DNA of 64,000 nucleotides from Cellulosimicrobium sp. Marseille-Q4280 (GTDB taxonomy: Bacteria; Actinomycetota; Actinomycetes; Actinomycetales; Cellulomonadaceae), in assembly GCF_943181405.1 (NCBI RefSeq), contig NZ_CALPBY010000001.1, positions 434,001-498,000 on the forward strand, written 5' to 3'. Below the pieces are notes generated by a model. The model was not told the DNA's origin. It searched no databases and saw only the letters and a list, made by a program, of their open reading frames with translations. Below are positions 36,137 to 52,454 of this stretch, piece by piece. Numbering within the stretch: position 1 is the stretch's first letter; every line of letters begins with the position of its first letter. The translations under genes were made by a program, and so were the position numbers.

Positions 36137-37444
36137 ATGCTCCTGTCGTACTGCACCAACGTCCACCCGGCCGAGGACCTCGACGGCGTGCTCGACCAGC
36201 TCGCGCGCTACGCCGCGCCCGTGCGCGAGGCGGCGGGGCTGGACGTGCTCGGCGTGGGGCTGTGGATGCCGGCAGTGCTCGCGCACCGGCTCGCGGGGTC
36301 GCCGGACGACCGGGACCGGCTCCGCGCGGCGCTCGCCGAGCACCGGCTCCAGGTCCACACCCTCAACGCGTTCCCGTACGGCGGGTTCCACGCCGACGTC
36401 GTCAAGCTCGACGTGTACACGCCCACGTGGGCCGACCCCGAGCGGCTCGCGTACACGCTCGAGTGCGCGGAGGTCCTCGCGGACCTGCTCCCCGACGGGG
36501 TCGACGGGTCGATCTCGACGCTGCCGCTCGCGTGGCGCGAGCCGTGGTCCGAGGCCGACGACGCCACGGCGACCCGCGCGTTCGCGGAGCTCTCGGCGGG
36601 GCTCCGGGACCTGCGCGAGCGCACGGGCAAGGTCGTGCGCGTCGCGGTCGAGCCCGAGCCGGGGTGCGTCCTCGACACCGTGGAGGACGTCGTGGCGTGG
36701 CTCTCCGCGCGGTCCGGTGCGGACCTGCCCGTCGAGCGGCGGATCGACCCCGAGCACGTCGGCGTGTGCCTCGACACGTGCCACCTCGCGGTGTCGTTCG
36801 CGGACCCCGCGGGCGCGGTGCGGCGGATCGCCGACGCCGGGCTGCGCGTCGTCAAGGTCCAGGCGTCGGCCGCGCTGCACGTGGCCGACCCGTCCGGCGC
36901 GGCTGCCCGCGACGCCGTGGGCGGGTTCGTCGAGAAGCGCTACATCCACCAGGTGCGCGAGCTCGCCGCCGACGGCACCGTGCTCGCCGCCGACGACCTG
37001 CCCGACGCGCTGGGCGACGGACCGGGTCCTGACGCGGGGGGCGACGTCGGGCACGACGCGGGGGTCGGCGTCGGGCACGCGCTCCCGGCGGAGGGCCCGT
37101 GGCGCGTGCACTTCCACGTGCCGCTGCACCACGAGCCCGAGGCGCCGCTCGCGGCGACGACGGACGTGCTGCGCGCCGCGGTCGCGGCCGTGCGGGAGGT
37201 GCCGCACGGCGACGAGGCGCACCTCGACGTCGAGACCTACACGTGGTCCGTGCTGCCCGAGGGCGCCGCGACCGACTCGCTCGTCGCCGGCATCGCGGCC
37301 GAGCTGCGCTGGGCGACGACCCACCTCATCCGCGCCGAGAACGACCTGAAGGACGTCACGACGCCGAGAACGACCCCCATGTCGGGTTCGGCGGCGACCG
37401 ACGACGTGCTCGGCACCGAAGGAACGACCAGGAGGACCGCATGA
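36137..37444 (+). CDS. eboE: EboE, metabolite-traffic TIM-barrel protein
   Basis: 435 aa. The start MLLSYCTNVHPAEDLDGVL is diagnostic for EboE (S-Y-C-T-N-V-H-P). Further family blocks are TLNAFPYGGFH, VKLDVYTPTWADPERL, VEPEPGC, VCLDTCHLAVSF, WRVHFHVPLH and VETYTWSVLP. Metal-binding residues of the xylose-isomerase fold are kept. Two additions stand out: an internal Gly/Asp/His repeat (DVGHDAGVGVGHA) near residue 300, and a 35-residue low-complexity tail whose DNA contains a degenerate copy of an intergenic hairpin word. It starts one base after eboB and ends in an ATGA overlap with eboF. Confidence 0.93.
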   Translation: MLLSYCTNVHPAEDLDGVLDQLARYAAPVREAAGLDVLGVGLWMPAVLAHRLAGSPDDRDRLRAALAEHRLQVHTLNAFPYGGFHADVVKLDVYTPTWADPERLAYTLECAEVLADLLPDGVDGSISTLPLAWREPWSEADDATATRAFAELSAGLRDLRERTGKVVRVAVEPEPGCVLDTVEDVVAWLSARSGADLPVERRIDPEHVGVCLDTCHLAVSFADPAGAVRRIADAGLRVVKVQASAALHVADPSGAAARDAVGGFVEKRYIHQVRELAADGTVLAADDLPDALGDGPGPDAGGDVGHDAGVGVGHALPAEGPWRVHFHVPLHHEPEAPLAATTDVLRAAVAAVREVPHGDEAHLDVETYTWSVLPEGAATDSLVAGIAAELRWATTHLIRAENDLKDVTTPRTTPMSGSAATDDVLGTEGTTRRTA

Positions 37445-38859
37445 AGCCCGTGCTGCTGCTCGACGTCGTCGGGCTCACGTCGACCGCGCTCGCCCACATG
37501 CCGCGCCTGCGCCAGCTTGCCGCGGGCGGCTGGCAGTCCGAGCTCGCGACCGTGCTGCCCGCCGTGACGTGCTCGGTCCAGTCGACGATGCTCACGGGCC
37601 TGAGCCCGGCCGAGCACGGGATCGTCGGCAACGGCTGGTACTTCCGCGAGCTCGGCGACGTGTACCTGTGGCGCCAGCACAACCGGCTCGTCGAGGGCGA
37701 GAAGCTCTGGGAGGCGGCGCGGTCGGCGCGCTCCGGCTACAGCAGCGCGAACGTCTGCTGGTGGTACGCGATGGGCATGTCGACGGACGTCACCGTCACG
37801 CCGCGCCCGATCTACCACGCCGACGGTCGCAAGTCTCCCGACGCGTACGTGCGGCCGCCGGCGCTGCACGACGACCTCGTGGAGCGGTTCGGCGAGTTCC
37901 CCCTGTTCACGTACTGGGGCCCGACGGCGTCCATCGCGTCCTCGCGCTGGATCGTCGACGCGACGCGGCACGTCCTGCGCACCCACGCTCCCGACCTCAC
38001 GATGACGTACGTCCCGCACCTGGACTACGACCTGCAGCGGTTCGGGCCGAACGACCCGCGGGCCCACGCCGCGGCGGCCGAGCTCGACGCGACGCTCGCG
38101 CCGCTGCTCGACGACTGCGCGAACCAGGGCGTCACGGTGCTCGTCGTGTCGGAGTACGGCATCGCCGACGTCGACCGGCCGGTGCACCTCAACCGCATCC
38201 TGCGGCGCGAGGGCCTGCTCGAGGTCTACGTCCAGGACGGCAAGGAGCAGCTCGACCCGTGGGCGTCGCGCGCGTTCGCCGTCGCGGACCACCAGGTCGC
38301 GCACGTCTACCTCGGCGACCCGCAGGACACCGCGCTGCAGCGCAAGGTCGCCGACCTGCTCCGCGCGGTGCCCGGCGTCGACGAGGTGCTCGACCGCGAG
38401 GCGCAGGCCCGCTACGGGCTCGACCACGAGCGGTCCGGCGAGCTCGTCGTCGTGGCGGAGCCCGGAGCCTGGTTCACGTACTACTTCTGGCTCGACGACG
38501 ACCGCGCTCCCGAGTACGCGCGCGGCGTCGACATCCACCGCAAGCCGGGCTACGACCCCGCCGAGCTGTTCTTCGACCCGGCGGACCCGCTCGCCAAGGC
38601 GAAGGCGGGCCTCAACCTCGTGAAGAAGAAGGTGGGCCTGCGGTACGCCATGAGCACGGTGCCGCTCGACGCGTCGTACGTGAAGGGGTCGCACGGTCGC
38701 CTGCCGACGTCGTCGGCGGACACGCCGCTGGTGCTGTGCTCGGACGCGGAGGTCCCCGCGTCGGTCGCGGGGCTCGTCGCCTCCGACGACGGGCAGGTGC
38801 CCGCGGCGGCGATCAAGGGTCTCGTGCTGGAGCTGCAAGGCCTCGGCGCCCGCGTCTGA
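37441..38859 (+). CDS. eboF: EboF, nucleotide pyrophosphatase / alkaline-phosphatase-like protein
   Basis: 472 aa of the type I phosphodiesterase superfamily. The N-terminus MKPVLLLDVVGLTSTAL supplies the metal Asp. The nucleophile region is ATVLPAVTCSVQSTMLTG (Thr/Ser after V-x-C), followed by SPAEHGIVGNGW. The second metal site has YVPHLDYDLQRFGP (H-x-D-Y), then VVSEYGI, and the final His is in KGSHGRLP. It should hydrolyse a phosphodiester or phosphomonoester of the ebo product. No signal peptide is visible, so it acts inside. Last gene of the operon, followed by the repeat block. Confidence 0.92.
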   Translation: MKPVLLLDVVGLTSTALAHMPRLRQLAAGGWQSELATVLPAVTCSVQSTMLTGLSPAEHGIVGNGWYFRELGDVYLWRQHNRLVEGEKLWEAARSARSGYSSANVCWWYAMGMSTDVTVTPRPIYHADGRKSPDAYVRPPALHDDLVERFGEFPLFTYWGPTASIASSRWIVDATRHVLRTHAPDLTMTYVPHLDYDLQRFGPNDPRAHAAAAELDATLAPLLDDCANQGVTVLVVSEYGIADVDRPVHLNRILRREGLLEVYVQDGKEQLDPWASRAFAVADHQVAHVYLGDPQDTALQRKVADLLRAVPGVDEVLDREAQARYGLDHERSGELVVVAEPGAWFTYYFWLDDDRAPEYARGVDIHRKPGYDPAELFFDPADPLAKAKAGLNLVKKKVGLRYAMSTVPLDASYVKGSHGRLPTSSADTPLVLCSDAEVPASVAGLVASDDGQVPAAAIKGLVLELQGLGARV

Positions 38860-38860
38860 C

Positions 38861-38906
38861 CGCGGCAGCGCGAGGTAGTACCGGGGTAGCGCGAGGTAGT
38901 ACCGCG
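38861..38906. repeat. Two units of a 21-23 bp repeat, inverted relative to the array at 39098-39334
   Basis: Two successive copies of a unit containing GCGCGAGGTAGTACC begin right after the eboF stop. They are the reverse complement of the units in the downstream array (GGTACTACYTCGCG). Together with that array they could form a very long hairpin enclosing the structured element. The same CGCGAGGTAG word is found at 58539-58611. Confidence 0.8.
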
Positions 38907-38946
38907 GTCGTGCCCGACGACGCGTGGTCGCCCTGGGTGTCGGGGC

Positions 38947-39025
38947 GGGTGGGGCGCCGCGTCTACCATCCGCCGCTCGTTCCTCGCGGCTCCCGCCAGG
39001 CCCACCACGACGCGGCGCCCCACCC
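38947..39025. other. Structured element, copy A (covarying two-stem fold)
   Basis: Outer stem of 15 perfect pairs (38947-38961 with 39011-39025, GGGTGGGGCGCCGCG). Inside are the free strand TCTACCATCC (38962-38971), an inner hairpin GCCGC/GCGGC (38972-38976, 38986-38990) with loop TCGTTCCTC, and the free strand TCCCGCCAGGCCCACCACGA (38991-39010). Copy B at 51178-51260 keeps the free parts (38 of 39 bases) but has different, still perfectly paired, stems. It lies between the convergent ends of eboF and the subtilase. The strand used and the function are unknown. Confidence 0.75.
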
Positions 39026-39097
39026 ACCCCTCCCGGGGTCGTCTCGCCCTGGTCCTCGCTCGCCCGGCGCCATCAAGCCTCATCGGCACCGGACCGC

Positions 39098-39334
39098 GGT
39101 ACTACTTCGCGCGAGGCCGGGGTACTGCTTCGCGCGAGGCCGGGGTACTGCTTCGCGAGGCCGGGGTACTGCTTCGCGAGGCCGGGGTACTGCTTCGCGC
39201 GGCCGGGGTACTGCTTCGCGCGGCCGGGGTACTGCTTCGCGCGGCCGGGGTACTGCTTCGCGCGGCCGGGGTACTGCTTCGCGCGGCCGGGGTACTACCT
39301 CGCGTGACCGGGGTACTACTTGGCGAGGCCGCGG
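39098..39334. repeat. Tandem array of eleven 21-23 bp units
   Basis: Units begin at 39098, 39121, 39144 and then every 21 bases to 39312. The consensus is GGTACTGCTTCGCGCGGCC plus GG. The central units (39186-39290) are identical. End units vary (GGTACTACTTCGCG, GGTACTACCTCGCGTG). There are no unique spacers. Decay toward the edges and identity in the middle are typical of slippage growth. It fills the space between copy A of the structured element and the subtilase stop. Number of units could differ between strains. Confidence 0.93.
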
Positions 39335-39420
39335 GGCTTCGTCGTGCTGCTGTGGACGCCGACGGCGCCCGGTCCGTGGGGACCGGGCGCCGTCGGTGAG
39401 CCGTGATCGTGCCGTGCAGC

Positions 39421-42400
39421 CTAGGAGCAGCTCAGCGCCTCGAACGCGGCGTCGTACGACGTCGTGACCTCGGCCCCGTCGATCTCCGCGGTGGCGTCCA
39501 CGGTCACGGAGTCCGCCTCGACCGACGTGTCGCGGACGGCGAACGCCTGGTACGCGTTCTTGCCCTCCTTGACGTTGTTGAACGTCCGGTCGCCGTACGG
39601 CGTGCTCACGGCGATGTCCGCCCGTGCGCCGGACTCGTTGAGCACGCGGACGGCCACGTAGGCCTTGCCCGCGAGGCAGCGCGACTCGGCGGTCACCGCG
39701 ACGTCCACGGCAGCGTCGGACGTCGTGACGTCCACCGTCTGCCACCGCTTGCCCGGTGTCGCGTTGTGCAGGTGCAGCAGCAGGAGCTTGCCGCTGCCCT
39801 CCTCCGCGGCGGCCTCCGACCGGTGCACCGTGACGGGTGCGTCGTCCGCGCCGAGGTAGACCAGCTCGTCCTCGCCGTCGAACCAGTAGGCGGGGTCGTA
39901 CGGGTCGCCCGTGAACGTGTCCGTGGCGTCGACGAGCTGGTCGGCGCCGGAGGCGTACGGCGAGTAGGTCCGCACCTGGAACGTCGGGACGGTGCCCTCC
40001 TCGATCCCGAGCGAGCCGATGCCCACCGGGATCACGACGACGTTGTTGTCGAACACCGAGGTGTCGACGTCGCCCCAGAGCGAGTTCACCGGCTGGAGGT
40101 CGATGTTGTCGCCGGCCTCGTACTCCGTGCCGTCCGGAGCCGTCCAGTCCTTGAGGGTGAACGTCGCCGCGAGGGTCAGGTCGGTCTCGCTGTTGTACTT
40201 GATGACCGCGACCTCGAAGTCCGAGGACCCGTCGGAGTCGACGTCGACCTCGACCGAGGGGCTCGCGACCGAGCCGAGGCTCGCCCACGGGCCGTCGACC
40301 GCGACGCCGATGCCGATGGTGCCGTCGGCCGGGTCGTCGCCGGCGGCCTCGAGCTGCGGTGCGGTCGAGGAGAACCCGACCGCGCGGATGTCCGCCGAGG
40401 CGATGGCCGTCGCCGACGTGCCCTCCGAGGCGTCGGCCTCGAGACGAGGGCTCGTCGCCTTGAGCTCGAAGGGCGCGAGCAGGGAGAACCAGCCGCCCGA
40501 GGCGACGCCCCGGCCGTCGAGGTCGAGCTCGGCGGTCTCCGCCTGCGCGCCGAAGGCGACCGGCTTGGCCGTGAGGTCGCTGACCAGTCGCGGCGACGCC
40601 TGCACCGGCACGCGGAGCTCGCTGCTGCCGTCGGTCGGCGTGAGCACGACGCGTCCGCTCACCGAGGACACGAAGTCGCGCGGGACACCGACGCCGGAGT
40701 CGGCCGACGACGTCGGGTCGAGCTCCTTCTCGAGCGTCGCCGGGTCCGCGGTGAGGGTCACGGTGACGACCGTCTGCTGCCCGGCCGGGACGGTGACCGT
40801 CGCGGGCGCGACGGAGACCGCCGCACCACCGGCCGTGCTCGACGACGTGAAGCCGGTCGCGTACGTGACCGGGGTGTCGCCCGTGTTGCGCACGGTGACG
40901 GCCTGGCGCTTCGTCACGGTCGCCGCGCCGACGTCGACGACGCCGAACGCGACCGACACGAGGTCGGACGCCTGCGACGCGTAGGCGAGCGTCGTGTTGC
41001 CCACCGCCTCGAGCGCGTCCACGCGGCCGGAGCCGATGCGCTCCGGGCCGTAGGCCGTACCGGTCCCGGACGGGCCCGTGAACACGTCGTGCGTCGCGGT
41101 GTTCATGACGGACGTCTTGATCTCCTGCGGGCCCCAGCCGGGCTGGGCCTGCTTGACGAGCGCCGCGATGCCCGTGACGTGCGGGGCCGACATGGACGTC
41201 CCGGACTTGATGCCCGCACCGTCGAGACGACCCGAGGCGGCGGAGGCGATGCCGGTTCCCGGAGCCGCGACGTCGGGCTTGACGACGCCGAGCGACCCGT
41301 GGACGCCGCGCGACGACCCGCTGTTGAGCGTGTCCGCGATCTCGGGGATCTCGACGAACGACGCCATCGCGTACGACGGCCCGATCGTCATGACGACCGT
41401 GCCCGCCTCGATCGCCGGGCGCAGCGCCGCGTGGCTCGGACCGGTGAGCTGCGCACCGGGGATGCCCTGGTTGCCTGCGATCCCGGCGACGAACGACTGG
41501 AGCTCGGACGACAGGAGCACGCCCGCCGCGCCCGCGGCCTCGGCGTTGTTGAAGCGCGCGGCGCTGCCGCACGCGCGCGTCGCGTCGTCGTCGTCCCAGA
41601 AGAGGAACGCGATCTTCCCGGCGACCGCCGCGGCCTGCTCCGGCGTGAACGCCTGGCAGCCGGAGAAGTCGTCGGCGACGAACGCGACCGGTGCGGTGAC
41701 GTCCTCCTCGCCGCGGTACTCGACGGAGTTCTGCGCCGCGTACGTGCCGGCGAGCTCTGCGGGCTCGACGACCTCCACGGCGTCGAACGTCTGGGTGTTC
41801 CCCACGGAGTTCGCCACCGTGAGGGCCGAGCGCGAGTTGCCCGGCGAGCCGCCGACGTCGGTCACGTCGCCCGAGTTGCCCGCCGAGTTGACGGACAGCG
41901 TGCCGAGGCGCGAGAGCTGGTCGATGAAGAGGTTCTCCGGGTCGTCCGCGGGGGAGCCGGCCGAGCCGAGGGAGAGGTTGACGATGTCGAGACGGTCGGA
42001 CAGGTCGCCGTCCTGGTCCGGGTCGGCCGCCCACTCGAGCGCGTCGACGACCACGCCGGTCGAGCCGCCGAGGTCGCCGAACACCTTGAGCGCGTACACG
42101 CCTGCCTCCGGCGCCGAGCCCGGCCCGACCTTCCAGTCGGAGATGTCGGTGAGCGTCGAGTAGTCGCCGTCGAACGTCGTGCCGTCGGCCGTGACGCCGT
42201 AGCCGGCGGCGGTGCCGGCGACGTGCGACCCGTGGCCCGAGCCGATCGTGTCCAGCGAGTCGATGGGGTTCTCGTCGGGAGACGGGACGAGCGTCGTGCC
42301 CTCGACGGTTCCCGAGGCGTCGTAGTCGTAGCCCGCGAAGTCGTGGCCGCCGAGGTACTTCACCTCGTCGTACGTCCCCTCGGGGACGGGGCCGTCGCCG

Positions 42401-43047
42401 CGCTCCCCGTACGCCTCGTCGTAGGCCTCCTGCGTGCCCGGGCCGCCGAAGTCCGCGTGCGTGTAGTCGATGCCGGTGTCGATGATGCCGATGCGCACGC
42501 CCTCGCCGGTGAGGCCCGTGCTCTGCCACGTCTCGGCGGCGCGCGTGAACAGGTCGGTGCCCTTGTTCGTGCGCTCCTTGGGGATGATGCGGTAGACCGT
42601 GACCACCTTGTCGTCGCGCGCGAGGTCGCGCACGCGGTCCGCGTCGCCCGTGACGACGACACCCGAGACGAGCGTGCTCGTCACCGAGACCTGCTGGGGG
42701 CTGCGTGCACCGGCGCTGCGCGCGGTCGCCTGCTGCGGGACGACGTCGTCCGCGAGCGTGGCGACCTCGGTCGCGTTGTCCTCGACCTCCTGCGGGCTCG
42801 CGCCCTGCGCGGCGAGGTCGACGCCCGACGGCGCGTCGAGCTGCACGAAGGCCGTCACCGTCCCGCTGGCGGCGGCGAGCGACGGCGCGACCTTGGTGGT
42901 CGGCTCGAGCCCGGCGTCCCTCTGGACCGCCAGACCGCCGGGTTCGTCCGGTGGTGGGGCGGCGACGGCCGGGACGGCGGCCGCGGCGACGACCGCGAGC
43001 CCCGCGGCGGCCGCGGTGAGGGACACGGGCAGAGAACGGTGCTTCAT
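39421..43047 (-). CDS. Secreted subtilisin-like (S8) protease with PA insert
   Basis: About 1208 aa. A Sec signal (MKHRSLPVSLTAAAAG, cleavage after VAA near 30) and an I9-like propeptide (about 65-155) precede the S8 catalytic domain. The triad is Asp190 (GIIDTGID), His275 (SGHGSHVAGT) and Ser618 (SGTSMSAPHV), and oxyanion Asn391 is in NSAGNSG. A protease-associated domain is inserted at about 430-560. Fn3-like and other beta domains fill the C-terminal half. ATG at 43047 is used. GTG at 43053, two codons earlier, has a better ribosome site (GGGGAA) and may be the true start. Probably an extracellular protein-degrading enzyme. Confidence 0.93.
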   Translation of the reverse strand: MKHRSLPVSLTAAAAGLAVVAAAAVPAVAAPPPDEPGGLAVQRDAGLEPTTKVAPSLAAASGTVTAFVQLDAPSGVDLAAQGASPQEVEDNATEVATLADDVVPQQATARSAGARSPQQVSVTSTLVSGVVVTGDADRVRDLARDDKVVTVYRIIPKERTNKGTDLFTRAAETWQSTGLTGEGVRIGIIDTGIDYTHADFGGPGTQEAYDEAYGERGDGPVPEGTYDEVKYLGGHDFAGYDYDASGTVEGTTLVPSPDENPIDSLDTIGSGHGSHVAGTAAGYGVTADGTTFDGDYSTLTDISDWKVGPGSAPEAGVYALKVFGDLGGSTGVVVDALEWAADPDQDGDLSDRLDIVNLSLGSAGSPADDPENLFIDQLSRLGTLSVNSAGNSGDVTDVGGSPGNSRSALTVANSVGNTQTFDAVEVVEPAELAGTYAAQNSVEYRGEEDVTAPVAFVADDFSGCQAFTPEQAAAVAGKIAFLFWDDDDATRACGSAARFNNAEAAGAAGVLLSSELQSFVAGIAGNQGIPGAQLTGPSHAALRPAIEAGTVVMTIGPSYAMASFVEIPEIADTLNSGSSRGVHGSLGVVKPDVAAPGTGIASAASGRLDGAGIKSGTSMSAPHVTGIAALVKQAQPGWGPQEIKTSVMNTATHDVFTGPSGTGTAYGPERIGSGRVDALEAVGNTTLAYASQASDLVSVAFGVVDVGAATVTKRQAVTVRNTGDTPVTYATGFTSSSTAGGAAVSVAPATVTVPAGQQTVVTVTLTADPATLEKELDPTSSADSGVGVPRDFVSSVSGRVVLTPTDGSSELRVPVQASPRLVSDLTAKPVAFGAQAETAELDLDGRGVASGGWFSLLAPFELKATSPRLEADASEGTSATAIASADIRAVGFSSTAPQLEAAGDDPADGTIGIGVAVDGPWASLGSVASPSVEVDVDSDGSSDFEVAVIKYNSETDLTLAATFTLKDWTAPDGTEYEAGDNIDLQPVNSLWGDVDTSVFDNNVVVIPVGIGSLGIEEGTVPTFQVRTYSPYASGADQLVDATDTFTGDPYDPAYWFDGEDELVYLGADDAPVTVHRSEAAAEEGSGKLLLLHLHNATPGKRWQTVDVTTSDAAVDVAVTAESRCLAGKAYVAVRVLNESGARADIAVSTPYGDRTFNNVKEGKNAYQAFAVRDTSVEADSVTVDATAEIDGAEVTTSYDAAFEALSCS

Positions 43048-43326
43048 CGACACTCATTTCCCCGGCTGGACCGGTGGGTGGAGGGGAGCGTAAGTGGGCC
43101 CTGCGGGAAGGCGCCGACCGGTCGGACGGGTGCCCCCGTTGCACGGTAACCTCCCGGCGCCCTGGTTGCCCAGGGACAGCGTCGACCCGGTCGCGACAGG
43201 ACGGCTGACGGAACCTAGGATTCCGCCCGGGGGCACGGGACGACGCTGTCCCGTGGGAGGCCCCTTCCCGCGTCAGGTCCACGGGTGCGACACACCGGGG
43301 GCGTGGCCCACGCAGAAGGAGAAACC

Positions 43327-48249: not shown

Positions 48250-49493
48250 CGGGTCCACCGCACCAGGAGGACGTCGTACGAGCCGGTCCGGCTGAGGAGC
48301 ATGAGGCGACCGGACGGGGAGTCGACCGACGCGGAGCCGCTGAGGTCCGCCAGGTCCTCGGCGCGCACGGGTGCCGGAGCCCCGCCGCCCGCGCAGAACA
48401 TGTCGCCCGGGTCGAGGTGCGCGACCGTCTCCTCGGCGTGCGGGGCGCGGGCGACGAACGCCCCGTGGACGTCGGCGACGAGCGTCCAGTCGACCGTCCC
48501 GGCACCGTCGGGCGCGAGCAGGAGCCACCGCAGGCCCGGGTGCCGCGCGTCCGCGCCGACGACGACCGCGGGGGAGAGCCACGGCCCGCCGAACCCGCGG
48601 AACCCGCCGAACCGGCCGAGGACGTGTGCCGGGCCGTGGACGCCCCGCAGCAGGACGGTCGGCGCCGCGCCGTCGGTGTCGCCGAGACCCGGCCACCACC
48701 ACGGGTCGGCGGCGTGCCGGTCGAGGACGGTCACGAGATCGGGGCCACCGACCGTCTCGGCCCAGGCCGGCTCGTCGGTCGTCACGAGCGACAGCGCGGC
48801 CCGCGCGACGTGCTCCGGCAGGCGCCGCGCGGCGTCGAGGGCCGCGTCGCGGTAGCGCACGAGACCGCTGCGCCACGCCGCGACGAGCACCGCTCCGCGG
48901 ACCAGGTCGACGGTCCGCGCGGCGGTCGTGCCGGTCGTGCCGGTCGCGTTCGTGCCGTCCTCCGTGATCGGGTCGGGCGCGGACGCGTGCGCGGCGTCGA
49001 CGACGCGCCGGCTCCACGCCGTGAGGTCGCCGTGGGACCCGGGCCCGCCACCGACCGCGCGGGCGCCGTCCACGACGGCCGCCACCGTCACCGCGGGCGC
49101 GGTCGCGAGCCACCCTGTAAGACGCGGCACGACCTCGAGGACGGCTGCCCGCTCCGGACCGCCGGTGCGCCAGCGGCGCGCCGCCGCGAGCCGTGCGGTG
49201 ACGTCGACGAGCGCGTCGCACGTCGCGGCGAAGGCTTCCGCCGCGAGCCGGTCGGCGAGCGGCTCGGCCGCCTGGGCGACCTCGCGGACCGCGTCCGCGA
49301 GCACGTCCCGCTCGGCGCCGTGCGCGAGGGCGCGGGCGAGCACGGCGTCGTACCGGTCGCGCGCCGCGAGGGCGCGGCTCGCGAAGGCCGAGCTCGCGGT
49401 GGGCGCCGCCGTCGCGGTGGCGGCCTCGGGCGACGCCACGACGTCGGGTGACCGGGCGGCCTCGGGCGACCGGGCGGCGTCGGGCAGGGTCAC
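48246..49493 (-). CDS. Hypothetical protein between moxR and the vWA gene
   Basis: 415 aa from GTG 49493, overlapping the moxR stop by GTGA and overlapping the vWA start by ATGA. The N-terminal half is alanine/arginine-rich helix. The C-terminal half has beta-rich segments with many Trp (ADPWWWPGLGD), a Gly-rich FGGFRGFGGPWLSP and MFCAGGGAPAPV. No family is recognised. Its fixed place between the ATPase and the vWA protein is like the third component of other MoxR/vWA systems, so it may be the substrate-recognition part. That is inference. Confidence 0.75.
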   Translation of the reverse strand: MTLPDAARSPEAARSPDVVASPEAATATAAPTASSAFASRALAARDRYDAVLARALAHGAERDVLADAVREVAQAAEPLADRLAAEAFAATCDALVDVTARLAAARRWRTGGPERAAVLEVVPRLTGWLATAPAVTVAAVVDGARAVGGGPGSHGDLTAWSRRVVDAAHASAPDPITEDGTNATGTTGTTAARTVDLVRGAVLVAAWRSGLVRYRDAALDAARRLPEHVARAALSLVTTDEPAWAETVGGPDLVTVLDRHAADPWWWPGLGDTDGAAPTVLLRGVHGPAHVLGRFGGFRGFGGPWLSPAVVVGADARHPGLRWLLLAPDGAGTVDWTLVADVHGAFVARAPHAEETVAHLDPGDMFCAGGGAPAPVRAEDLADLSGSASVDSPSGRLMLLSRTGSYDVLLVRWTR

Positions 49494-51097
49494 GTGCCGC
49501 TCCAGCGCAGCCAGGTGAGGTAGTTGGTGTACCGCTGGTGGGCGTACTTCAGCGCGAGGGCGTCCTCGTAGACGTGCCCGTGGAGCTTGGCGTGCTGCTG
49601 CCAGGACGCGAGCACCTTCTCGATGCGGGCGAGACGCCGGCGCACGTCCGCCTCGGGCAGACCCTCCAGGCCGGCGGCCAGCTGGTCGAGGATCTCGCCG
49701 ACGTCGTCCCGGTCGTCGAGCCCCGTGGCGTCGTACTGGCGGCACGCGGTGTCGAACAGGTCGCGGATCCACGACACCCGGTCGGAGCGCAGCGGCTCGC
49801 GGTCGCGGTCGTCGAACGGCGCGGACTGCAGGTCGGGCAGCAGCTTGTCGTGCAGGACGAACGGGAGGACCGCGCGCAGGTCCGCGAGGTCCACCTCGGC
49901 GTTGCCGCGGAAGTACGCCATCGCCTTCGCGTACGCGACGAGCGACTGCAGCGCGCGGACGGACAGCCCGTTGAGCGTCTGCGCGCCCACGTCGCCGAGT
50001 CGGTCGCGGCCCGAGTCCGCCGTCGCGACCAGGTGGGGGTCCACGCCCGCGACACGTGCCGTGTCCTTCGTCCGGTACTCGAACTGCCACCCCGCGCGCT
50101 CGAGCACCTCGAGCTGGCTCGCGAAGAACTCGAGGCGACGGCGCACCGGCTCCGGGAGCGGCACGGCGAGGATCGCGGCGTGCAGCGCGGCGTGCTCCGC
50201 GGCGTCGAACACGATCTCCGGCGGCACGTTCTCCTCGGGCCGCACGCGCCGCTCCGCACGCGCGACGAGGTCGCCGAGGAAACGGTTGTTGAACGGCATC
50301 GCGTGCACGACGACGTCGATGCGGTCCCGCAGCGCGTCGACCACCTGGTACGTGCCGCCGCCCGCGTCGTCGTTCGCCGTGAGGTACCAGGCCGCGTCGC
50401 CCGTCTCGTAGACCTGGTCGTACACCTCGACGTACCCGTCCGCGAGGACGGTGAGCAGCGCCGACTGGGTGCGCGTCGGGATGCGGTTGTACTCGTCGAC
50501 GATCTTCACGCGCATGCCGAGCCACGACCGCCACGCGACGTCGACGTCGGCGAGGCTGTCCGCCTGCACGAGGTCCTTCGGCAGCGGCGTGCCGAACAGG
50601 TCCGAGACCGTGAGCTGCGGGTGCCCGTGCTGCATCGCGCGCCGCACCTCGCGCACCGGGTAGCCCGCGAGCACGCCCATGAGCACGGCGCTCGCGGTCT
50701 TGCCGCGGCCCGGCCCGCCGATCATCAGGCACCGCCCGCGCACCGCGAACGTCAGCAGCGGCAGCAGCACGAAGCTCGAGTAGGACTGGTCGCTCGGCAG
50801 GTTCAGCAGCGCCTTGGAGTCGCCGAGCCGAAAGCTCGTCTCCGCGGCGCCCGGTGCCGAGAACTCGACGTCGTAATGCGGGGAGATGATCGCGTGGTTG
50901 ACGACCCAGAAGTACGCCTGCCGCAGCTTCTCGTCGAGCGGCAGCCCGGTGCGCTTCTCGCCGTCGGTGCCTACCGCGTCGGCGACCGGCGTCCCGAACA
51001 GGTCGTCGACACCCAGGGCGAACGGGTCGCGGCCGTCCGTCCGACCTGTCGGCTGCGGCCGGGTCGGTGCGGAGGAGACGTGCTCGAGATCGGTCAC
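49490..51097 (-). CDS. MoxR-type AAA+ ATPase
   Basis: 535 aa from GTG 51097 (AGGA seven bases upstream; the longer reading from 51142 has no ribosome site). Walker A is IGGPGRGKTAS, Walker B VKIVDEYNRIPTRTQ (D-E-x-N-R), sensor 1 YLTANDD and an arginine-finger region with RDRIDVVVHAMPFNNRFL. The lid has RALQSLVAYAKAMAYFRGN. The N-terminal 90 residues are an added region, and the C-terminal 130 residues are helical. First gene of the operon running toward 44 kb. Copy B of the structured element lies about 80 bases upstream of its start. Confidence 0.92.
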   Translation of the reverse strand: MTDLEHVSSAPTRPQPTGRTDGRDPFALGVDDLFGTPVADAVGTDGEKRTGLPLDEKLRQAYFWVVNHAIISPHYDVEFSAPGAAETSFRLGDSKALLNLPSDQSYSSFVLLPLLTFAVRGRCLMIGGPGRGKTASAVLMGVLAGYPVREVRRAMQHGHPQLTVSDLFGTPLPKDLVQADSLADVDVAWRSWLGMRVKIVDEYNRIPTRTQSALLTVLADGYVEVYDQVYETGDAAWYLTANDDAGGGTYQVVDALRDRIDVVVHAMPFNNRFLGDLVARAERRVRPEENVPPEIVFDAAEHAALHAAILAVPLPEPVRRRLEFFASQLEVLERAGWQFEYRTKDTARVAGVDPHLVATADSGRDRLGDVGAQTLNGLSVRALQSLVAYAKAMAYFRGNAEVDLADLRAVLPFVLHDKLLPDLQSAPFDDRDREPLRSDRVSWIRDLFDTACRQYDATGLDDRDDVGEILDQLAAGLEGLPEADVRRRLARIEKVLASWQQHAKLHGHVYEDALALKYAHQRYTNYLTWLRWSGT

Positions 51098-51177
51098 GGG
51101 CCGATCCTGCCATCCCTCGTCGTCGGTCAGCAGGTGGTCCACAGGTCGTCCGCGCGGTGCAGGTCAGCGGGGTTCCC

Positions 51178-51260
51178 GGGTGGCGGCGGCGGGTCTACCA
51201 TCCGGACCCTCGTTCCTCGGGTCCTCCCGCCAGACCCACCACGACCCGCCGCCGCCACCC
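51178..51260. other. Structured element, copy B (leader of moxR / 3' region of nadR)
   Basis: Outer stem of 16 perfect pairs (51178-51193 with 51245-51260, GGGTGGCGGCGGCGGG), free strand TCTACCATCC (51194-51203), inner hairpin GGACCC/GGGTCC (51204-51209, 51219-51224) with loop TCGTTCCTC, and free strand TCCCGCCAGACCCACCACGA (51225-51244). Compared with copy A both stems have changed bases on both sides. It lies between two minus-strand genes, after nadR and before moxR. Confidence 0.75.
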
Positions 51261-51326
51261 GTCCACCCCGCTCGTCGTCCGCCTCACCTCAGCAGCGGGC
51301 ATCCCCGGGCCCGGTGCCGAGCGCCC

Positions 51327-52454
51327 TCAGAAGGCGTCGGTGCCGGCCTGGGGGAGCGGGTCGGCGACGTACCGCGGGGTCGTGAGCAGCGGCCCGACGG
51401 CGGCCAGCGCCACGGCGAGCCGGGTCGCCCGGTCACCCCTCACCTCGAACCACGGGACACCGGGGCGGTCACCGTCCGGGGACGACAGCTCCGCCGGGCC
51501 GAGGTGGCGGACGACGTCGGCCGGGTCGGCGAGGTGCGGTCCGGTCGCGGCGAGCACCTCGCGGAAGCGGTCCTGCATCGCGTGGCGCACGTGCTCGCCG
51601 TCGCGCGTGCCGTCCTGGACGAACGGGATCTCGTCGCCGGTGAGGACGTAGAGGTCGGGACGCCGGGCGGCGGCCAGCGCCTCGACGCCCGGGGAGCGGT
51701 GACCGACGTAGCGCTCGTGCCACAGCGTCGTCGCGAGCACGTCGGTGTCGCAGACCAGGAGCGGCATGGGCGCGGTCGCGGCGGCGTCGTCCTCGCGCCG
51801 GGCCTGCTCGCGCGCGACGAGGTCGAACTCCGCGGTGTGCCACGGCGCCGTCGGTCCGCCGGGTCGGTCCACGGACCACTCGCGGCCGAACTCGAGGACG
51901 GGGTCGAGGCCGAGGTGCCCGGCGAGGTCGCTCGCGAGCGTCGTCGAGCCCGTGGACTCGGCCCCGAGCACGACGACGCGCCGCACGTACCAGGACCGCA
52001 CGGCCGCGGGCAGCGCCCACCAGTGGGCCGCGGGGTCGGCGCGGACCGCCGAGCCGGACACCGGCAGGTTCCGGCGGTCGGGGTCCACCTGGACCCACGT
52101 GGCGTCGAAGCGCCGTGCGAGCTCGACGCCGTACCGGTCCGAGGTGAGCACCGCGTCGACGGGCGGGTCGTCCGGGTCGAGGAGTGCGCGCATGACCTTG
52201 ACGTGCTCGTCCCACGCGTGCGGGTCGGCGTAGTCCACGGGCGCGTCGTCGAGCCCGTGCACGACGCGCGCCCCCGGGGCCTCGGCGCGCAGCCAGTCGG
52301 CGCGCAGCGCGGCGGGGATCGACTCGCGCGTCGACGCGAGCACCTCGACCGTGACGCGCTCGCACCGGGCGAGCGCGGTGCGTACGAGCTGGAGGTGGCC
52401 CGCGTGCGGCGGGTAGAACTTCCCGATCACGAGACCGTGGGCGAACTCCCTCAC
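51327..52454 (-). CDS. nadR: NadR-type NMN adenylyltransferase / nicotinamide riboside kinase
   Basis: 375 aa from GTG 52454, overlapping the pnuC stop (GTGA). The N-terminal nucleotidyltransferase domain begins GLVIGKFYPPHAGHLQL, with the H-A-G-H motif, and has NLPVSGSAVR (I-S-G-T/S-x-x-R). The C-terminal kinase domain (from about 158) has a P-loop-like VLGAESTGSTTLA in which the Lys is replaced by Ser170. It also has GREWSVDR and LVCDTDVLATTLWHE. Functions in salvage of nicotinamide riboside brought in by PnuC. The altered P-loop leaves kinase activity in question. No N-terminal repressor domain. Confidence 0.92.
   Translation of the reverse strand: MREFAHGLVIGKFYPPHAGHLQLVRTALARCERVTVEVLASTRESIPAALRADWLRAEAPGARVVHGLDDAPVDYADPHAWDEHVKVMRALLDPDDPPVDAVLTSDRYGVELARRFDATWVQVDPDRRNLPVSGSAVRADPAAHWWALPAAVRSWYVRRVVVLGAESTGSTTLASDLAGHLGLDPVLEFGREWSVDRPGGPTAPWHTAEFDLVAREQARREDDAAATAPMPLLVCDTDVLATTLWHERYVGHRSPGVEALAAARRPDLYVLTGDEIPFVQDGTRDGEHVRHAMQDRFREVLAATGPHLADPADVVRHLGPAELSSPDGDRPGVPWFEVRGDRATRLAVALAAVGPLLTTPRYVADPLPQAGTDAF

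Follow-up and report, generated by a model that had tools for sequence, protein, structure and literature searches.

REP and BIME sequences, which go with TnpA-REP (RAYT) transposases, are short multi-copy hairpins near gene ends that are thought to be read as folded single strands, whose stems are conserved in sequence and which carry GTAG/GGAG at the hairpin foot. MITEs conserve their terminal inverted repeats, and attC sites are characterized by folded-strand recognition, variable stems, conserved unpaired bases and a position after genes. RPEs occur between genes as well as inside them. In PMC10969869 they are described as palindromic repeats of ~150 bp found in frame within unrelated genes. 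PMC2267715 gives a catalogue of stem-loop repeat families from 40 genomes, with three high-GC Gram-positives among them.

Two copies of a hairpin, A and B, were analysed in a window comprising the whole stretch of 64,000 nt of Cellulosimicrobium sp. Marseille-Q4280 (NZ_CALPBY010000001.1, 434,001-498,000, forward strand), together with their relatives in public genomes. As with RPEs, in-frame copies are present within ordinary genes, a comparison made by description and not by sequence; however, the arms here vary and covary around fixed loops, the hosts are actinobacterial, and three sense frames as well as the antisense orientation are used. REP sequences are resembled in the short, many-copy hairpins near gene ends, but the stems are variable, no Y1 transposase is present in the 43 carriers, and the GTAG of the minus strand sits inside a conserved unpaired stretch and not at the foot. 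MITEs such as ERIC, Correia and BOX are likewise small non-autonomous repeats whose sites differ between relatives, whereas in the present family it is the inverted repeats that vary. Variable stems, conserved unpaired bases and a post-gene position are shared with attC sites (compared by description and not by alignment), the differences being that the conserved sequence lies in the loops and that no integron integrase above cut-off is present in 150 genomes. The covariation is RNA-like, as in the structured RNAs of Rfam, but G.U pairs are very few and there is no gathering-level match. Fixed loops, freely covarying arms, scarce G.U, the use of all frames and the lack of a REP transposase together set the family apart. 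The earlier statement that these motifs belong to no described family holds as far as tested: Rfam release 15 at the gathering threshold gave no match in the window besides a tRNA, with only chance-level hits in the copy A region (E 3.6-7.7), and no description of the repeat was found in the open-access literature, which does not imply absence in print. We consider the family best explained, with slightly less than even confidence, as a non-autonomous dispersed palindromic DNA element with effects like those of REP sequences and RPEs, which is recognised in the form of a folded DNA hairpin, spread by an enzyme and partly retained by selection.

Structure of the two window copies

Copy A spans 38942-39030 and copy B spans 51177-51261 of the window, the stems of both extending slightly beyond the coordinates of the original prediction. 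Gene calls were made with a home-made gene caller and domains of the neighbours were assigned by Pfam, giving the following features.

37441..38859, + strand: type I phosphodiesterase / nucleotide pyrophosphatase gene, its stop ~80 bases ahead of copy A
38942..38961, + strand: copy A outer stem, 5' arm (inverted repeat I4 and fold)
38962..38971, + strand: copy A conserved TCTACCATCC, its TC able to lengthen the stem (sequence, fold and conservation)
38972..38976, + strand: copy A inner stem, 5' arm GCCGC
38977..38985, + strand: copy A conserved loop TCGTTCCTC
38986..38990, + strand: copy A inner stem, 3' arm GCGGC
38991..39010, + strand: copy A conserved TCCCGCCAGGCCCACCACGA, its GA able to lengthen the stem
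39011..39030, + strand: copy A outer stem, 3' arm (inverted repeat and fold)
39421..43053, - strand: subtilase-family gene on the other side of copy A, convergent with the phosphodiesterase gene
49490..51142, - strand: AAA_3 / AAA_lid_2 ATPase gene, left of copy B
51167..51173, + strand: copy B distal stem past the internal loop, 5' arm GCGGGGT (equal layout in other copies, e.g. L116)
51174..51176, + strand: copy B symmetric internal loop TCC, 5' side
51177..51193, + strand: copy B outer stem, 5' arm, 17 perfect pairs
51194..51203, + strand: copy B conserved TCTACCATCC
51204..51209, + strand: copy B inner stem, 5' arm GGACCC
51210..51218, + strand: copy B conserved loop TCGTTCCTC
51219..51224, + strand: copy B inner stem, 3' arm GGGTCC
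51225..51244, + strand: copy B conserved TCCCGCCAGACCCACCACGA
51245..51261, + strand: copy B outer stem, 3' arm
51262..51264, + strand: copy B symmetric internal loop TCC, 3' side
51265..51271, + strand: copy B distal stem, 3' arm ACCCCGC
51327..52454, - strand: AAA_28-domain gene whose stop faces copy B

Copy A thus lies between convergent genes and copy B between two minus-strand genes. The original prediction of one shared fold was borne out by the RNA folds of the + strand, which in both copies give the described structure plus small side pairs (z -5.9 and -6.8, with 0 of 200 shuffles as low), and direct comparison confirmed that the conserved stretches TCTACCATCC, TCGTTCCTC and TCCCGCCAG(G/A)CCCACCACGA are equal at 38 of 39 bases while the inner stems differ, being GCCGC/GCGGC in copy A and GGACCC/GGGTCC in copy B. 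One detail required correction. The 39 bases had been taken as unpaired, but the opening TC of the first stretch and the closing GA of the last are complementary and lengthen the stem in the RNA fold, these four junction bases probably being paired, and hence 35 bases are truly unpaired. The outer stem of copy B has 17 perfect pairs, after which come a symmetric TCC/TCC internal loop and seven further pairs, and that of copy A covers 20 positions with a single C.A mismatch. The window has two matches to the joint pattern, whereas 100 shuffles gave none. The claim that this is not a random repeat holds as far as tested. Other folds agree less well: for the minus strand of copy A, with RNA as well as DNA parameters, and for the + strand of copy B with DNA parameters, the outer stem is predicted with no inner hairpin. 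Absence of the inner hairpin from these DNA-parameter folds is a point against reading the element as folded DNA.

A 21-base tandem repeat (GCGAGGTAGTACCGCGG..) stands on both sides of copy A in opposite orientations, with ~2 units at 38859-38907 and ~11 units at 39094-39331, and just to the right of the latter array 39359-39396 is occupied by a perfect inverted repeat of 17 bp whose arms are 4 bases apart. Similar 21-base arrays are found beside young hairpin copies in other species, and the window's genome contains 27 exact matches to part of the 21-base unit, many with no hairpin nearby.

A covarying family in Cellulosimicrobium and its relatives

The exact two-motif pattern is present at 22 places in the window's genome, as against none for a reversed control, and in at least 112 stretches of public genomes. 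Among the 112 matches listed, 92 are named Cellulosimicrobium, five Sphaerisporangium cinnabarinum, three Luteimicrobium and one Oerskovia, while 11 are from other phyla, and these last are chance matches as far as seen, since none of the nine inspected (all but L057 and L065) contained the element. The record Sphaerisporangium cinnabarinum ATCC 31213 (L006, L025, L079, L099 and L105) holds Cellulosimicrobium-type copies and its organism name is probably wrong. Two pattern hits in IMG/VR were without stems and were discarded as chance.

Using a covariance model (R1) built from 15 copies with six-pair inner stems, at least 45 copies were detected in the window's genome. Three further Cellulosimicrobium genomes contain 23, 59 and 34 copies. 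Because few candidates were scored per genome (at most 28 in the family sample and at most 10 each in the order and phylum samples), the genome counts are lower bounds and the negatives weak: R1 found the element in 43 of 150 genomes and 10 of 25 genera of the family, including 17 of 17 genomes of Cellulosimicrobium; a model retrained on 87 copies (R2) found it in 26 of 396 genomes and 15 of 110 genera of the order, with 20 of the 26 outside the window's own family; and in a phylum sample of 396 the window's own genome alone was matched. Nineteen of the 26 order genomes, spanning five families, reached E 1e-5 or better, and the best E of the other seven was >1e-5. When 30 distant copies were aligned, most were seen to retain CCATCC, CTCGT(T/C)CCTCG and CTCCCGCCAG(N)CCC between varying stems. 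A longer form of the element carries an extra hairpin of ~55 bases at TCCCG^CCAG with a conserved GTTCGCAAGCTCACT (L018, L027, L031, L100), and ~150-base matches in genomes G088 and G049 may be further cases of it.

Pairing is maintained throughout the family by changes on both sides of the stems. In an ungapped MAFFT alignment of 15 sequences (A2), 97.4% of cells are paired with 74 two-sided changes (shuffle mean 20, slid partners 4-16), and in an alignment of 86 distinct sequences fitted to the structure by the covariance model (A7), 96.8% of cells are paired with 550 two-sided changes (shuffle mean 142, slid partners 46-118) and a covariation score of 0.763 vs 0.161. Coarser measures on A7 are less clear, 22 pairs with two-sided change being reached by 6 of 500 shuffles and 62 further pair types by 68 of 500. 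Similar figures were obtained from the window's genome alone and from other genomes alone. Covarying copies in related genomes, the test set in the original prediction, speak strongly for it.

Stems that covary around preserved loops usually count as proof that an RNA is functional. The wobble pairs in this family are scarce and of the wrong kind for the sense strand: the 3209 pair cells of 143 distinct older cores comprise 3076 Watson-Crick, 20 G.T, 52 A.C and 61 other cells, and counted once per locus, with an approximate position index, there are 51 A.C-type vs 22 G.T-type events (p 9e-4). The gap is narrower in distant copies (15 G.T vs 20 A.C among 668 cells) and is seen even within the tandem-sense copies (4 vs 16). 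An excess of A.C over G.T is the reverse of what is expected for sense-strand RNA, and such RNA fits poorly. This leaves folding of the minus strand, pairing preserved at the DNA level, or a strand bias of mutation, which could account for the A.C excess. As A.C on the + strand is G.U on the minus strand, the excess both by cells and per locus is what a non-coding RNA transcribed from the minus strand of the hairpin loci would leave, but we regard such an RNA as very unlikely, given that at most loci it would run antisense to the gene upstream, that the minus strand of copy A is predicted without the inner hairpin and that a search limited to sigma-70-like promoters found none near A or B. Very strong covariation with almost no G.U and with coding copies on both strands makes the family a natural test of whether DNA hairpins can mimic RNA covariation.

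Placement after genes and within them

The 95 distinct older loci include 31 in tandem sense, 27 convergent, 13 in tandem antisense, two divergent, 15 in genes and seven at contig ends (locus L112 lies outside the 100 source stretches of one locus survey). Sense orientation is thus commoner than antisense among older tandem loci (31 vs 13, p 0.0096), and the median distance from the upstream stop is 38 bases for tandem-sense and 50 bases for convergent loci. No orientation bias is seen in a younger amplified subfamily of 44 loci (7 vs 7). By reading of protein ends, the upstream genes in the window's genome are mixed, ordinary housekeeping genes.

This placement bears directly on whether the element acts as a sense-strand 3'-UTR RNA, in which a hairpin near the end of the mRNA would terminate or protect the transcript and its pyrimidine-rich loops would be read by an RNA-binding protein. 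The preponderance of tandem-sense and convergent loci over antisense and divergent ones, with the upstream stop close by, is expected of such an RNA, and the orientation bias (31 vs 13) to that extent counts against the folded-DNA reading; the + strand of both window copies folds as proposed, and in C. marinum the orthologous convergent gap at one older site has a different 18-bp hairpin. However, G.T pairs are fewer than A.C pairs even among tandem-sense copies, the young loci are without orientation bias, no T run follows the hairpin at A or B, and 15 of 95 loci are in coding sequence, where termination would cut the gene short, making the 3'-UTR explanation rather unlikely. An intrinsic terminator was rejected for the same lack of a T run at A and B and since older loci are not only after transcription units, in line with the original prediction as far as tested; copies inside genes are evidence against transcription termination as a general function.

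Fourteen in-gene loci are in sense and three in antisense orientation, and all three sense frames are used. Six cases were checked against Pfam, placing the copies as follows.

LigD: linker between the phosphoesterase and ligase domains
Fused ABC transporter: between the permease and ATPase domains
Biotin carboxylase: past the biotin carboxylase C-terminal domain, ahead of the biotinyl domain
Polymerase III alpha-type protein: past a stretch of the alpha domain, ahead of the finger domain
Thioredoxin/NHL protein: between the thioredoxin-like domain and the NHL repeats
Protein with two ABC ATPase stretches: in the C-terminal part

The translated element reads STIR.., VYHP.. or LPSA.., or as an unrelated peptide when antisense. 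A conserved peptide is therefore ruled out, as copies in three sense frames and in antisense have nucleotides and not a peptide in common. At the thioredoxin/NHL locus, which two genera share, the element has five codons ending in A or T (TCT, CCT, CCA, CCA, CGA) that are identical in 5 of 5 genomes. Conserved enzymes such as LigD, the polymerase III alpha-type protein, biotin carboxylase and ABC proteins hence contain linker segments derived from a repeat.

Site differences, conservation and possible spread

Species differ in the presence of the element at the same site. For four young sites of one genome, 20 orthologous stretches were compared, of which 15 are without the hairpin, three have it and two were not assigned (L251, empty by the strict pattern but with a diverged hairpin, is counted as present); three of the 15 retain the 21-base repeat array together with a truncated arm. 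At an older convergent site (L094:2316-2388), C. marinum is without the element and four relatives have it. Such differences reflect either gain or loss. The C. marinum gap is occupied by another hairpin of 18 bp (CACGAGGTTGCTGTCGT..), which looks like the replacement of one kind of hairpin by another. Across 955 flank pairs, 81 are without a core by the strict pattern, though many of these resemble repeat-array matches or diverged cores (L094 alone was read fully). Where sites are shared, orientation is equal in 110 pairs and opposite in 15, several of the latter being two neighbouring copies, and the linker of LigD clearly shows a single site occupied in either orientation.

In 41 young copies the 17-base 5' arm shows no changes and the 3' arm two changes in 697 bases, these copies having been chosen for exact loops and the last nine 5'-arm bases, so that 9 of the 17 were fixed by selection of the set, whereas in the two 40-base flanks, themselves part of the repeat unit, 387 and 308 of 1640 positions are different, with indels accounting for some of these. 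Near-invariant arms beside diverged flanks imply movement or homogenisation of the hairpin independently of its surroundings, or else a far stronger constraint on it. Four older locus groups, chosen from 25 multi-genome loci and two of them spanning genera, gave 32 pairs with loops 88-100% identical, nearby coding sequence 76-96% and 58-base flanks 60-97%, as against a shuffled baseline of 52-67% for such flanks. Twelve cross-genus pairs at two loci retain 88-95% of non-stem core bases with flanks at 60-74%, near random. That conserved loops are retained at orthologous sites argues for a host function rather than pure selfishness. A proposal that arms change faster than flanks was dropped, because the flank identities stemmed from coding sequence while the spacers themselves had diverged.

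Some REP sites are said to bind host DNA proteins. A cruciform or hairpin serving here as binding site for a host protein of replication, supercoiling or the nucleoid would be in keeping with the loop identity of 88-95% between near-random flanks in the 12 cross-genus pairs, and with the use of both strands inside and outside genes; but the distribution is patchy (43 of 150 family and 26 of 396 order genomes), and copy number ranges from 23 to 59 among the deeply searched genomes of Cellulosimicrobium, so that such a site appears unlikely. No match that would point to plasmid or phage provenance was found for the copy A region, and no origin genes were recognised at 5 of 6 contig starts inspected for a replication-strand bias.

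The Y1 HUH transposase (PF01797) was found neither in the window's genome nor in any of 43 carriers, its only occurrence among 150 family genomes being in a non-carrier, and for this and for the variable stems a known REP system was rejected. A retron or group II intron element was rejected because reverse transcriptase (PF00078) is not common to carriers (2 of 43). As far as tested, the enzyme is thus not Y1, integron-type or reverse-transcriptase based. This also weighs on attC-like recombination sites, of which a tyrosine recombinase would use the folded bottom strand: the location shortly past stop codons in sense orientation, wobble counts in favour of the bottom strand, and variable stems with conserved unpaired bases all speak for them, but integron integrase is above the curated cut-off in 0 of 150 family genomes, with weaker tyrosine-recombinase matches in all, upstream genes look like ordinary housekeeping genes and copies are also inside genes. 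Such sites are extremely unlikely.

Of the three readings offered in the original prediction, sense-strand structured RNA is thus disfavoured, and the best fit is a small mobile DNA element that is recognised by its hairpin. Under the mobile-element reading, it would be structure that defines the element, with variable, perfectly paired arms around nearly fixed unpaired sequence. A protein may read it as an extruded DNA hairpin, either a single strand or a cruciform, which would explain why pairing and loops are important and the sequence of the arms is not. An enzyme supplied in trans would copy or move the element into gene ends and protein linkers, where the least harm is done. The arms would remain Watson-Crick because the hairpin must form as DNA and because template switching re-copies one arm from the other, and such switching during replication could renew perfect arms in a single step. 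Template switching as a route to perfect stems has been described for RNA hairpins (PMC8794818). Old copies just downstream of genes, commoner in sense, look retained by selection, perhaps as 3'-end structures; that spread was followed by use is suggested by the sense bias and the loop constraint at old sites. A bolder form of the proposal, namely a new class of folded-DNA mobile element whose single-stranded hairpin is mobilised by an enzyme other than Y1, integron or reverse-transcriptase types, is inserted in frame into linkers in any frame and has its arms rewritten pairwise by template switching, is possible but somewhat improbable. If true, DNA-level copying, and not selection on RNA, would yield textbook covariation. 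The family also points to a further enzyme or binding protein in these bacteria.

Two minor features concern the arrangement of copies. Several contigs start or end in or beside a copy (starts of C5, C6 and C8 in G000; L003, L013, L030, L048, L051, L074, L083, L090, L103), and hence the hairpin seems to break assemblies. In addition, pairs of copies face each other within a few hundred bases (L046, L123, L187, L234), either between convergent genes or, in L187, inside one polymerase III alpha-type gene.
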